Positions 1 through 11,079 of a stretch of 11,079 nt of DNA are shown here, piece after piece (the first letter of the stretch is position 1; every line of letters begins with the position of its first letter). Position numbers and translations under genes: made by a program. The notes under the pieces are model-generated. The model was not told the origin of the DNA and ran no database searches. It worked only from the letters and a program-made list of their open reading frames with translations. Origin of the DNA: Candidatus Tectimicrobiota bacterium (GTDB lineage Bacteria; JACPSX01); contig JACPSX010000142.1 of NCBI GenBank assembly GCA_016193065.1, positions 1-11,079 on the forward strand. Direction: 5' to 3'.

Positions 1-94
1 GAACTCTCAATCCGGCCGACACAACTCACGTCGCAAGCGCTTCGTGAGCCCAAGGGGGCGCTCCCGAGGATCTGGGAAGAGTTGCAATTCCGCA

Positions 95-5007: not shown

Positions 5008-6927
5008 TCAGGACTGGGGTTCCGCCTCTTTCTTGATCCGCTCGATGAGCTGCGCCACGGACATCGGGCCCAGATCTCCCTGGGCCCTCTCGCGGACCGC
5101 CACCATACCCGACTCAACCTCCCGGTTGCCGATGACCAGCATGTAGGGAACCTTGTTTTGCTGGGCCTCCCGGATCTTGTAGCCGATCTTTTCGTTCCGG
5201 AAATCCCCCCCGGCCCGCAGTCCACTCTCCCGCAAGGAAGCCAGCACCCCCTCCCCGTACGGGACGTGCGCATCCGTAATCGAGAGAACCACGGCCTGGA
5301 CCGGGGCCAACCAGACCGGGAAGGCTCCTCCGTAGTGCTCGATGAGAACTCCCAGGAACCGTTCCAGGGATCCCAACAAGGCCCGGTGAATCATGATGGG
5401 ACGCTGGTAGGATCCGTCACTGGCCACGTAAGAGAGATCAAAGCGCTGGGGCAGATTGAAGTCCACCTGAATCGTGCTGCACTGCCAGGTACGGCGCAGA
5501 GCGTCGCGGATCTTTATATCGATCTTGGGGCCGTAAAAGACCCCTTCCCCGGAGTCGACTTCAAACGGCAGCCCTTTTTTCTCCAGCGCGGCTCTCAAAG
5601 CCGAGGTGGCCTTCTCCCAGTCCTCGTCGGATCCCACGGACTTCTCCGGGCGGGTGCTCAGGTAGATCGCGTACTCCGAAAACCCAAAGGCCTTGAGCAC
5701 CCTCACGTTGAGATCGAGGATCCTAAGAATCTCTTCTTCCAGGTGATCCGGGCGGCAGAAGATATGGGCGTCATCCTGGGTAAACCCCCGCACCCGCATG
5801 AGACCGTGGAGCACACCCGACTTCTCGTAGCGATACACGGTCCCCAGCTCGGCCCAGCGGATGGGAAGATCCCGATAGCTGCGCAGCTTCTGCTTGTACA
5901 TCAAAATGTGGAAGGGACAATTCATGGGTTTGACCACGAACTTCTGCCCGTCCAGATCCATGGGAGAGAACATGTTCTCCCGGTAAAACTCCCAGTGTCC
6001 CGAACACTCCCACAGGTTCACCCGGGCCAGATGAGGGGTAAACACCATATCGTAGCCCGAGCGGTAGTGAATCTGGCGCCAAAAATCTTCCAAGGTAACC
6101 CGCAGTCTGGCCCCCTTGGGGTGCCAGAAGACCAGACCCGGCCCCGCTTCTTCCTGAATACTGTAGAGGTCCAGCTCCGGCCCCAGCTTCCGGTGATCCC
6201 GCTTGCGGGCCTCCTCGATCCGCCGCAGGTGTTCCTCCAGAAGCTGGCGGCTCTCGAAGGAGGTGCCGTAAATGCGCTGCAGCATCTTGTTGCGCTCATC
6301 GCCGCGCCAGTACGCGCCCGCGATCCCGGTCAGCTTGAAGGCAGCGATCCTCTTCGTGGAGGGAACGTGGGGCCCCCGGCACAAATCCACGAAGTCCCCC
6401 TGCTCGTAAATGCTGACCGTCCCGTCCGAAATCTCCTCCAGCATCTCCACCTTGTAATCCTCGCCCTGCCGGCGAAAGAGCTCTTTGGCTTCCTCCCGGC
6501 TCAACTCCCGACGCCGGACTTTCAAATCGGCGTTGATGATTTCCTGCATCATCTTCTCGATGGCCTGCAGGTGCTCGGGAGTAAAACTCACCGGTGCATC
6601 GAAGTCGTAGTAGAAACCATCCTCAATCGCCGGGCCGATGGTGATTTTTGTGCCTGGATAGAGGGCCTTTACGGCCTGAGCCATGATATGGGAAGTGCTG
6701 TGGCGGAAGATCTCCCGCCCTTCCGGGCTCCCCGGATAGACCGGCTCCAGGATTGCATCCTCCTGCAAGGGAAAGCTCAGATCCACCAGACGCCCGTTCA
6801 CTCGGGCCGCCACGGGTCGCTGGCTCGTCTCCCCTTCCAAAGCAGCGAGAACCTCCCCTACCGGCGTCCCCGCCGGCCAGGTTTTCCGCTGACTTCCCCC
6901 CACCGTGAGGTGAATCTCGTTGGCCAT
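5008..6927 (-). CDS. thrS: Threonyl-tRNA synthetase
   Basis: A class II synthetase that charges tRNA-Thr in the cytoplasm. The 639-residue product has the full bacterial layout. The TGS domain is at about 1-62. The editing domain follows, with HSTSH at 76-80 (His76, His80) and Cys183/His187 in DLCRGPH, the residues used to hydrolyse Ser-tRNA. The catalytic core spans about 240-535 and has zinc ligands Cys337, His388 and His514. The class II motif 2 arginine is in TVYRYE and motif 3 is around RALLGSLERF. The C-terminal anticodon-binding domain is at about 540-639. The ATG start gives the standard N-terminus, but its ribosome site (GGGAG, 3 bases away) is tight. It lies between the tRNA-Val terminator and infC. 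The high GC leaves the opposite strand open along the whole gene, which has no significance. Confidence 0.97.
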   Translation of the reverse strand: MANEIHLTVGGSQRKTWPAGTPVGEVLAALEGETSQRPVAARVNGRLVDLSFPLQEDAILEPVYPGSPEGREIFRHSTSHIMAQAVKALYPGTKITIGPAIEDGFYYDFDAPVSFTPEHLQAIEKMMQEIINADLKVRRRELSREEAKELFRRQGEDYKVEMLEEISDGTVSIYEQGDFVDLCRGPHVPSTKRIAAFKLTGIAGAYWRGDERNKMLQRIYGTSFESRQLLEEHLRRIEEARKRDHRKLGPELDLYSIQEEAGPGLVFWHPKGARLRVTLEDFWRQIHYRSGYDMVFTPHLARVNLWECSGHWEFYRENMFSPMDLDGQKFVVKPMNCPFHILMYKQKLRSYRDLPIRWAELGTVYRYEKSGVLHGLMRVRGFTQDDAHIFCRPDHLEEEILRILDLNVRVLKAFGFSEYAIYLSTRPEKSVGSDEDWEKATSALRAALEKKGLPFEVDSGEGVFYGPKIDIKIRDALRRTWQCSTIQVDFNLPQRFDLSYVASDGSYQRPIMIHRALLGSLERFLGVLIEHYGGAFPVWLAPVQAVVLSITDAHVPYGEGVLASLRESGLRAGGDFRNEKIGYKIREAQQNKVPYMLVIGNREVESGMVAVRERAQGDLGPMSVAQLIERIKKEAEPQS

Positions 6928-7140: not shown

Positions 7141-7569
7141 TCAGAGGCCTTTTTCCTCGATAAGCTCGGTGAGGACCCCCCCCGTGCTGCGCGGGTGCAG
7201 GAATGCGACCGAGGCCCCTTCTCCCCCTGGACGCGGGACCTGGTCGATCAATTCCATTTCCTGGCGGCGGCACAGATCCAGGGACCGCCCGAGATCCTCC
7301 ACGGCATAGGCGAGGTGATGCATCCCTTCCCCTCGTTTGCTTAAAAAACGGGCAACCCCGGAGTTCGGGTCCAGAGGCTGGATGAGTTCCAGGCGGGTTC
7401 CCCCCAAAGGGAAATAAGCAATCCGAACCCCGGCCCCCGGAAGCTCTTCCACGTGGGACAGGGACAAACCCAGCCGAGCCTGATACCGGCCAATAGCCTC
7501 CTCAAGGTCTCGCACCACAATCCCGATGTGGTGCAACCTCTTGATTCCAATTCCTTCAGACCCAGCCAT
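7141..7569 (-). CDS. mce: Methylmalonyl-CoA epimerase (glyoxalase/VOC fold)
   Basis: This enzyme interconverts (2R)- and (2S)-methylmalonyl-CoA, linking propionyl-CoA carboxylation with B12-dependent methylmalonyl-CoA mutase. The 142-residue product has two VOC repeats. The motifs are HHIGIVV at 13-19, LELIQP at 60-65, GMHHLAYAV at 82-90 and HPRSTGGVLTEL at 125-136. They supply the family's metal ligands: the histidine before IGI, a histidine of GMHH and the Glu of LTEL. The pattern STGGVL-x-EL is characteristic of the epimerase, as against general glyoxalases. The ATG start has GGGGAG 11 bases upstream. It follows clpX by 21 bases, and a tRNA promoter starts 18 bases beyond its stop. The partner mutase and carboxylase genes are not in the window. 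Confidence 0.88.
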   Translation of the reverse strand: MAGSEGIGIKRLHHIGIVVRDLEEAIGRYQARLGLSLSHVEELPGAGVRIAYFPLGGTRLELIQPLDPNSGVARFLSKRGEGMHHLAYAVEDLGRSLDLCRRQEMELIDQVPRPGGEGASVAFLHPRSTGGVLTELIEEKGL

Positions 7570-9543: not shown

Positions 9544-10839
9544 TTAAGCTTTCTGAATCTCATCCTGAATCGTGAGTTTACCTAACAAGGCGTCCCATGT
9601 CTTCCTTCTTTTCAGGCTGTCTTTGAGTTGCTCCAGGGCTCGATTTTTGGCCAGGGCGTTGCGCACCGCTTCCACGCTTTGCCGGCTCCGGGACGCTAAC
9701 TGCTCGATCTCCTTTTCTACTTCCTCATCCGAGACCGCAATTCCCTCCATCTCGGCCAGCCGCTCCAGGATCAACTCCCCTTTGACCCGGCGGGTTGCCT
9801 GCTCACGGAAGCGCCGGGACCATTCTTCCTGATCCTCCGGCGCGACCGGCATCTGGACGCCTTTGGCTTTGAGGTTCTGCTCAAATTCGCGAGCCAGGGC
9901 CCGGGTCTCTTCTTCCACCAGAATCGCAGGCACCTCAATGGGGTTCATCTCGATGAGCCGATCCAGGATCTCCTCCTGCAACACCGCCTGGGCCTGCCGG
10001 TCCGCCTCCCGCTGCAAGGATTCCTGCAGTTTTGCCCGCAATTCGGCCAGAGAATTAAATTCTCCTTCCACCGCCCTGGCAAACTCGTCATTGATCTCCG
10101 GGAGATGCTTCTTCTTTAACTCCTTGACCACAAGCGAGAAAACCGCCGTCTTTCCAGCCAGATCCCGATTGTGATAATCCACGGGGTAGGTGACCGACAC
10201 CTCCATCGCGTCCCCTTTCCGGCTGCCCACAAGACGATTCTCAAACTCGGGCAGCAAGGTCCCTGAGCCCACGACCAAAGGGAAATTTTCCCCTTTCCCC
10301 TTTTCCATCGGCTCGCCGTCCACCTTGCCGTGAAAATCGATGACCACGTAATCCCCCTCGCTCGTCCTACCTTCGGGAACGTCCACGAACTCAGCATGAC
10401 GATCCTGAAGTCTGGCGAGGGCCTCGTCGATCTGGGCCTCTCCAATCAGCGGTTTTTTGCGGGCAAAAGATAACCCCTCGAAACCGTGCACTTCAACCCG
10501 GGGGAGAACTTCCACCTCCGCCGTGTACTGAATCGGTTTTTCAAGGTTCAGTTGAACGGGGTTCACTTTCGGCCGGCCCAGGATCGGCAAAGACCTCTCC
10601 TGCACCACCTTTTGCAAAGTCTCCGGAATAATCTTCTCGAGCACGTCCCGCTCCACCTCTTTGCGATAATACTGCTCGAGGATCTTGCGCGGGACTTTTC
10701 CCGGACGGAAGCCCGCCACCTTGGCCCTGCGCCCGAGTTCCCGGTAGGCTTCCTCCAGGCGCTCCCGTACGTCTTCCACGGGAACTTCGACGCTCAAGCG
10801 TCTCAAACAAGAGCTAACTTCCTCAACCTCAACTTTCAT
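9544..10839 (-). CDS. tig: Trigger factor (ribosome-associated chaperone, peptidyl-prolyl isomerase)
   Basis: Trigger factor binds the ribosome near the polypeptide exit tunnel and shields nascent chains in the cytoplasm. The 431-residue product has the usual family length. The N-terminal ribosome-binding domain carries the signature GFRPGKVP at residues 43-50. The FKBP-like isomerase domain spans about 160-245 (EGDYVVIDFHG to FSLVVKELK). The helical C-terminal chaperone domain fills the rest and is rich in charged helices. The ATG start has a GGGAG site 5 bases upstream. It is first in a tight tig-clpP-clpX group, with a 20-base gap to clpP. A small terminator lies 25 bases upstream and the tRNA-Leu in front has lost its 5' half. 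The original promoter may therefore have been displaced, and tig may now rely on a promoter in the flanking DNA. The identification is secure. Confidence 0.97.
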   Translation of the reverse strand: MKVEVEEVSSCLRRLSVEVPVEDVRERLEEAYRELGRRAKVAGFRPGKVPRKILEQYYRKEVERDVLEKIIPETLQKVVQERSLPILGRPKVNPVQLNLEKPIQYTAEVEVLPRVEVHGFEGLSFARKKPLIGEAQIDEALARLQDRHAEFVDVPEGRTSEGDYVVIDFHGKVDGEPMEKGKGENFPLVVGSGTLLPEFENRLVGSRKGDAMEVSVTYPVDYHNRDLAGKTAVFSLVVKELKKKHLPEINDEFARAVEGEFNSLAELRAKLQESLQREADRQAQAVLQEEILDRLIEMNPIEVPAILVEEETRALAREFEQNLKAKGVQMPVAPEDQEEWSRRFREQATRRVKGELILERLAEMEGIAVSDEEVEKEIEQLASRSRQSVEAVRNALAKNRALEQLKDSLKRRKTWDALLGKLTIQDEIQKA

Positions 10840-10864: not shown

Positions 10865-10885
10865 AAAAAAAGGGTCGGAAAACCC
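10865..10885 (-). terminator. Small intrinsic terminator after the tRNA-Leu remnant
   Basis: On the minus strand GGGTT-TTCC-GACCC forms a 5-bp stem with one U-G pair, followed directly by seven T residues (10865-10871). It sits 11 bases after the tRNA CCA end and 25 bases before the tig start. It probably ended the original tRNA-Leu transcript. The stem is short, so termination may be partial. Confidence 0.5.
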
Positions 10886-10896
10886 CGGCTGGAATT

Positions 10897-10950
10897 TGGT
10901 GCGAGAGGGGGGATTCGAACCCCCACGGTTGCCCACTGGATCCTAAGTCC
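10897..10950 (-). pseudogene. tRNA-Leu(UAG) 3' fragment, 5' half missing
   Basis: Read on the minus strand, this segment holds half an anticodon stem (GGA), the loop CTTAGGA with anticodon UAG, and TCCAG as the 3' side of the stem. A long class II variable arm (TGGGCAACCGT) follows, then a T arm GGGGG-TTCGAAT-CCCCC, the acceptor 3' strand CTCTCGC and an encoded ACCA. This is unmistakably the 3' part of a leucine tRNA. An intact gene would need an acceptor 5' strand GCGAGAG, a D arm and CTGGA as the 5' anticodon stem. The upstream sequence has none of these: the base pairs fail from 10951 onward and no GCGAGAG occurs upstream within the window. It therefore cannot fold as a tRNA. Retention of exactly the 3' part from the anticodon stem, next to a chromosomal gene (tig), is what tRNA-targeting tyrosine recombinases leave at the distal end of an island. 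Confidence 0.8.
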
Positions 10951-11079
10951 GTACCCCCCATCCGAGTGCCCCATAGTACCACATCTATCCCCATGAAGAA
11001 AGGGAGATTAGCTCTAGACCCATTGGAGCAAATTGGGGCCGATCCGGGGTGGTTCTCGGACAATTCTCGGGCAGTTCCA
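10951..11079. other. Non-coding right edge, possible end of an integrated element
   Basis: No convincing gene is seen in these 129 bases. The segment abuts the tRNA-Leu 3' fragment exactly where the tRNA similarity stops, inside the anticodon stem. It contains two near-identical 10-mers, TTCTCGGACA at 11053-11062 and TTCTCGGGCA at 11064-11073, in tandem with an 11-base period. If the tRNA fragment is an attachment-site remnant, this is the inner edge of the inserted DNA, and short direct repeats of this kind could be recombinase arm sites. That reading is inference. An assembly junction is the main alternative. Confidence 0.35.

Follow-up and report, generated by a model that had tools for sequence, protein, structure and literature searches.

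Introduction

Integration in tRNA genes was reportedly sorted into sublocation classes by Williams in 2002. Among the described systems are the tyrosine-integrase islands and prophages of the Islander type that enter at the anticodon loop, where a displaced 3' part of the tRNA, starting at the anticodon loop, is found by the old chromosomal neighbour, with non-tRNA DNA joined to it at the break and tandem repeats that resemble arm-type sites. In the Islander survey, 3760 of 3919 islands were accompanied by a 3' fragment and 2083 were anticodon-centred (PMC4383910). One such example is PFGI-1 of Pseudomonas fluorescens Pf-5, which lies in tRNA-Lys; of the 49 bp of its att repeat, 45 belong to the tRNA 3' end, from the anticodon to the T loops (PMC2647930). 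Another known system is the bacterial tRNA group I introns, where more than one tRNA carries a related insert at its anticodon arm.

Here, a tRNA-Leu(UAG) gene that is broken at the end of a metagenomic contig is compared with these systems. The window, the whole stretch of DNA that was analysed, is the entire contig C29 (11079 bp) of the metagenome-assembled genome G000, so that position 11079 is a physical contig end; the bin comprises 294 contigs and 2.9 Mb and is 86% complete. The locus shares with the Islander-type islands the displaced fragment by its neighbour, the non-tRNA DNA and, by resemblance, the arm-like repeats, and its break, which keeps the 3' part and lies where the anticodon loop begins on its 5' side, represents the commonest configuration among mapped tRNA islands, as judged from the Islander counts. 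Its 54-nt fragment covers the same tRNA parts as the 45 bp of PFGI-1, although PFGI-1 is fully mapped with its integrase and occupies tRNA-Lys, whereas the target here is tRNA-Leu(UAG). The locus is best explained as a mobile-element insertion scar at the anticodon loop of tRNA-Leu(UAG), where a tyrosine recombinase has probably displaced the 3' part of the gene that now lies beside tig.

A tRNA-Leu(UAG) gene broken at the anticodon stem

Positions 10897-10950 of the window (minus strand) read GGACTTAGGATCCAGTGGGCAACCGTGGGGGTTCGAATCCCCCCTCTCGCACCA, which corresponds to a run of tRNA-Leu(UAG) that starts at position 29, on the 5' side of the anticodon stem, and ends with the CCA. This stretch contains anticodon-stem positions 29-31, an intact loop CTTAGGA (10941-10947) with the anticodon TAG, and the 3' stem TCCAG, followed by the variable arm, the T arm, the acceptor 3' strand CTCTCGC and CCA. 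The fragment is faultless; genome G031 has an intact tRNA-Leu(UAG) linked to tig, whose corresponding part differs from it at 2 positions. It was recognised from its sequence, with no tRNA being called at 10897-10950 by ARAGORN or Rfam. The first-pass annotation had described a perfect tRNA-Leu 3' part that breaks off at 10950 within the 5' anticodon stem, and both the sequence and the comparison with G031 agree with that description.

The DNA upstream of the break (10951-11079, minus strand), which is proposed to be the end of an integrated element, carries no tRNA 5' half, since its best alignment to a tRNA-Leu 5' half is no better than those of shuffled sequences (p 0.33). A 5' half hidden in this 129-nt tail was rejected on the same grounds, and the earlier statement that the sequence upstream of the break cannot supply the missing half thus holds. 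It had also been claimed that the DNA beyond 10951 would be the end of an integrated element; the flank is indeed non-tRNA sequence, but because the window is a whole contig of the assembled genome, just 129 nt of it are present before the contig ends at 11079. With only that much of a possible element in hand, an integrase and the far end would not be visible. At the left contig end, window positions 1-50 belong to a dispersed repeat, of which 43 nt recur exactly on C35 (L163) and a longer, slightly diverged copy is found on C21 (L151). Overlaps between contig ends gave no information on the assembly k-mer.

On the other side, the fragment lies in the correct orientation 57 nt upstream of tig (trigger factor), an open reading frame at 9544-10839 (minus strand). 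No genome among those compared is closer to G000 than domain level, and a search of genome contigs with tig found no close relative. Of 29 distant tig loci, 17 have an intact tRNA-Leu(UAG) close upstream of tig, in the same orientation in 16 of those 17. This conserved adjacency indicates that the window fragment is the 3' part of the original gene in its old place, and that tig is its original chromosomal neighbour.

tRNA genes and tRNA fragments elsewhere in the bin

An intact tRNA-Leu(UAG), which was expected at the far end of an island, was not found in the 86%-complete bin, while the other four leucine isoacceptors (UAA, CAA, GAG and CAG) are present. This absence is weak evidence, because six whole amino-acid classes (Ala, Ile, Lys, Glu, Gln and Cys) are also missing from the bin. 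Nor does the core of the UAG 3' end recur in the bin, where the sole other match is 32 nt of tRNA-Leu(GAG). Of the 23 tRNA clusters in the bin, 8 lie within 500 nt of contig ends, as opposed to about 10% expected (p 0.0013).

When tRNA 3' ends that belong neither to called tRNAs nor to the tmRNA on C259 were sought across the bin, three were found besides that of the window, on contigs C69, C180 and C288. The match on C288 is likely due to chance. That on C69 (L171, 11598-11632, plus strand) is an orphan Arg-like tRNA 3' part that lies 40 nt after tRNA-His, with a terminator-like hairpin beyond it, and its flank is not related to the flanks on C29 and C180. C69 had been considered as the lost neighbour of the window, since the Lys and Leu(UAG) genes beside tig in L044 and L049 are preceded by a tRNA-Pro/Arg/His cluster, and was rejected, as it runs past the terminator-like hairpin into other genes and has an unrelated flank at its own orphan fragment.

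A second junction in tRNA-Ala(CGC)

The third fragment, at C180 (L221) 5253-5298 (minus strand), is a 46-nt 3' part of tRNA-Ala(CGC), which lies 204 nt from its contig end (C180 ends at 5502). An intact tRNA-Ala(CGC) was not found in the bin. Intact tRNA-Ala genes from other sources, namely a (CGC) gene on a Sphingomonas plasmid and (GGC) genes on an Acidithiobacillus plasmid and in a phage, align to this fragment only from the anticodon-loop edge on. The tRNA genes of C180 and of the window are cut at the same structural point, with ...GGGAACCGA followed by the loop ATCGCAC on C180 and ...GGGGTACGGA followed by the loop CTTAGGA in the window. The C180 contig end carries AAGGAGG and then ATG AGG GGC AAG, reading into the proposed element, which is no more than suggestive.

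The flanks of the two fragments share a modest homology. In an anchored global alignment of the 129 nt of the window with the 130 nt before the C180 fragment, 76 identities were found in 136 columns, a score that neither the 5,000 order-1 shuffles nor the 19,952 pieces drawn at random from the bin reached. Few comparisons were made to obtain this result, because C180 was chosen by its tRNA fragment and not by its flank. A denser scan, of 199,196 windows, turned up a single unrelated window with a slightly higher score, due mainly to a 21-nt match on C184; this match lies inside an open reading frame of transposase-like appearance and was judged to be chance. When nhmmer was run on about 0.7 Mb of the bin, each flank was the best non-self match of the other (E 0.003 with the C180 query, 0.014 in reverse). 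The upstream regions of 21 intact tRNA genes and the flanks on C69 and C288 gave far lower scores. A sequence model of the flank pair, searched against the whole bin, found only the two source places, which match by construction. The blocks common to both flanks, as aligned, include ATGGGGATAGATG (10982-10994, minus strand), which has the form ATGGGGTTAGATG in the C180 flank, GGCCCCAATT (11031-11040, minus strand), and ATGGGGWTAGATG.

Both flanks also carry tandem repeats of a CGGACA type, about 103-126 nt from the break. In the window these are the direct repeats TTCTCGGACAA / TTCTCGGGCAG (11053-11074, plus strand), and their counterpart at matching distance is TTCACGGACAAAACACGGACA (C180:5404-5424). 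These repeats are proposed to be arm-type recombinase sites, a putative function that rests on resemblance to such sites. Across 386 genomes, the motif TTCNCGGACAAWNCNCGGACA was found on C180 only, and in viral contigs it had 7 matches, one of which lies near an apparent tRNA-Thr 5' half. At this viral locus (L232, IMGVR_UViG_3300050139_000325, about 7196-7460), the apparent tRNA-Thr(CGT) 5' half is found between two CGGACA-type tandem repeats, and no integrase was identified near the repeats.

The homology bears on the possibility of an assembly artefact, where chimerism or misassembly would have fused the final 129 nt of the contig to a normal tRNA gene. The break is about one read length from the contig end, and tRNA clusters occur near contig ends above expectation, as given above, both of which would fit such an artefact; but on C180 a homologous flank adjoins another tRNA, cut at that same point of its structure, which a random chimera would not yield, making this explanation quite improbable.

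Two tRNAs interrupted at the same structural position by homologous sequence could also point to an intervening sequence, where the anticodon stems of both tRNA-Leu(UAG) and tRNA-Ala(CGC) would hold an intron-like insert, removed from the transcript, with the flank as its 3' end. While the junctions resemble the group I introns of bacterial tRNAs in that more than one tRNA carries a related insert at the anticodon arm, they differ from them in several respects. No group I or group II Rfam match was obtained even at permissive thresholds: group II domain V-VI had no match in 10880-11079 (E up to 5) or in C180:5150-5502 (E up to 1), and the group I core had none in the same two regions, where only the 3' end of an intron would be present. 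The group I 5' splice site needs a U, whereas the base before position 31, as deduced from stem pairing, would be G in both targets. Moreover, shuffled versions of the strand fold just as well (z 0.56), the bin holds no 5' half of tRNA-Leu(UAG) or tRNA-Ala(CGC) that could serve as 5' exon, and arm-like repeats are found instead. An intron is therefore the most improbable of the explanations considered.

Searches for integrase and mobile genes

No integrase or other mobile gene was found in the 129 nt of the window or near the C180 junction, and peptides of the tail had no family match. Matches to the integrase domain PF00589 sit on other contigs of the bin, with none near either junction; one of these is XerC by its neighbours (beside hslV/hslU), another is a full-length gene on C78, and the remaining matches are weaker or partial. 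Short partial matches to the integrase catalytic domain, in open frames of 54-80 aa that resemble decayed integrases, are found on C188 (L172, 100-240), C131 and C49. The integrase arm domain PF14657 was not found in the bin. When the tail was compared with phages, plasmids and viral contigs, only matches to the tRNA part or of chance size were obtained, and model matches among viral loci picked with a seed were rejected, as they were driven by that seed.

These results bear on whether a living element still exists. It is conceivable that the tRNA was once split by an island or rearrangement and that the element has since been largely deleted, leaving the C29 and C180 flanks as leftover arms. 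Such a decayed remnant would agree with the lack of a visible mobile gene and of a far-end tRNA in the bin and with the several fragment-like integrase-domain matches, but the tRNA part shows no fault or other mark of decay, and the arm-like repeats can still be made out. We regard this explanation as unlikely.

Discussion

Insertion of an element at the anticodon loop, the preferred reading, would have proceeded as follows. An element with a tyrosine integrase would enter the anticodon loop of the chromosomal tRNA-Leu(UAG) upstream of tig, and its attP would supply a replacement 3' part, from which an intact tRNA would be rebuilt at the far junction. The original 3' part (10897-10950) would be displaced and remain beside tig, and 10951-11079 would be the near end of the element, carrying repeats for arm-type binding. 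Two tRNAs that are cut alike, with homologous flanks and repeats at a fixed distance, are what would be expected of the displaced-fragment end of anticodon-loop tyrosine-integrase elements, and it is the homology of the C180 flank together with the matching distance of the repeats that supports this assignment for the window. The first-pass annotation had already proposed a tyrosine recombinase and a displaced 3' part attached to tig, a mechanism that gains independent support from the homologous junction on C180. As opposed to the mapped Islander-type islands, the window presents the displaced-fragment end only, and we infer the integrase, the rebuilt tRNA, the element body and the far end, which the assembled bin did not yield. 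This negative result and the modest degree of the flank homology weigh against the reading. Recovery of islands in metagenome-assembled genomes is poor, as it is for certain other regions (PMC13381789), in line with two contigs that end 129 and 204 nt beyond the break.

Insertion of an island in a tRNA gene is an ordinary kind of event, and the only unusual point here is that the two related junctions do not share a tRNA gene, which suggests that a single element family has changed its target. A tentative and rather doubtful proposal is that the tRNA-Leu(UAG) and tRNA-Ala(CGC) junctions belong to one family, whose recombinase may have switched its tRNA target or may read several anticodon arms while the crossover position and the arm sites were kept. 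The window thus holds a probable island boundary in the genome of a bacterial lineage with no relatives closer than domain among the genomes compared. The pair of junctions would provide a small natural comparison of how the tRNA gene used by related integrating elements may change while crossover position and arm sites stay the same.
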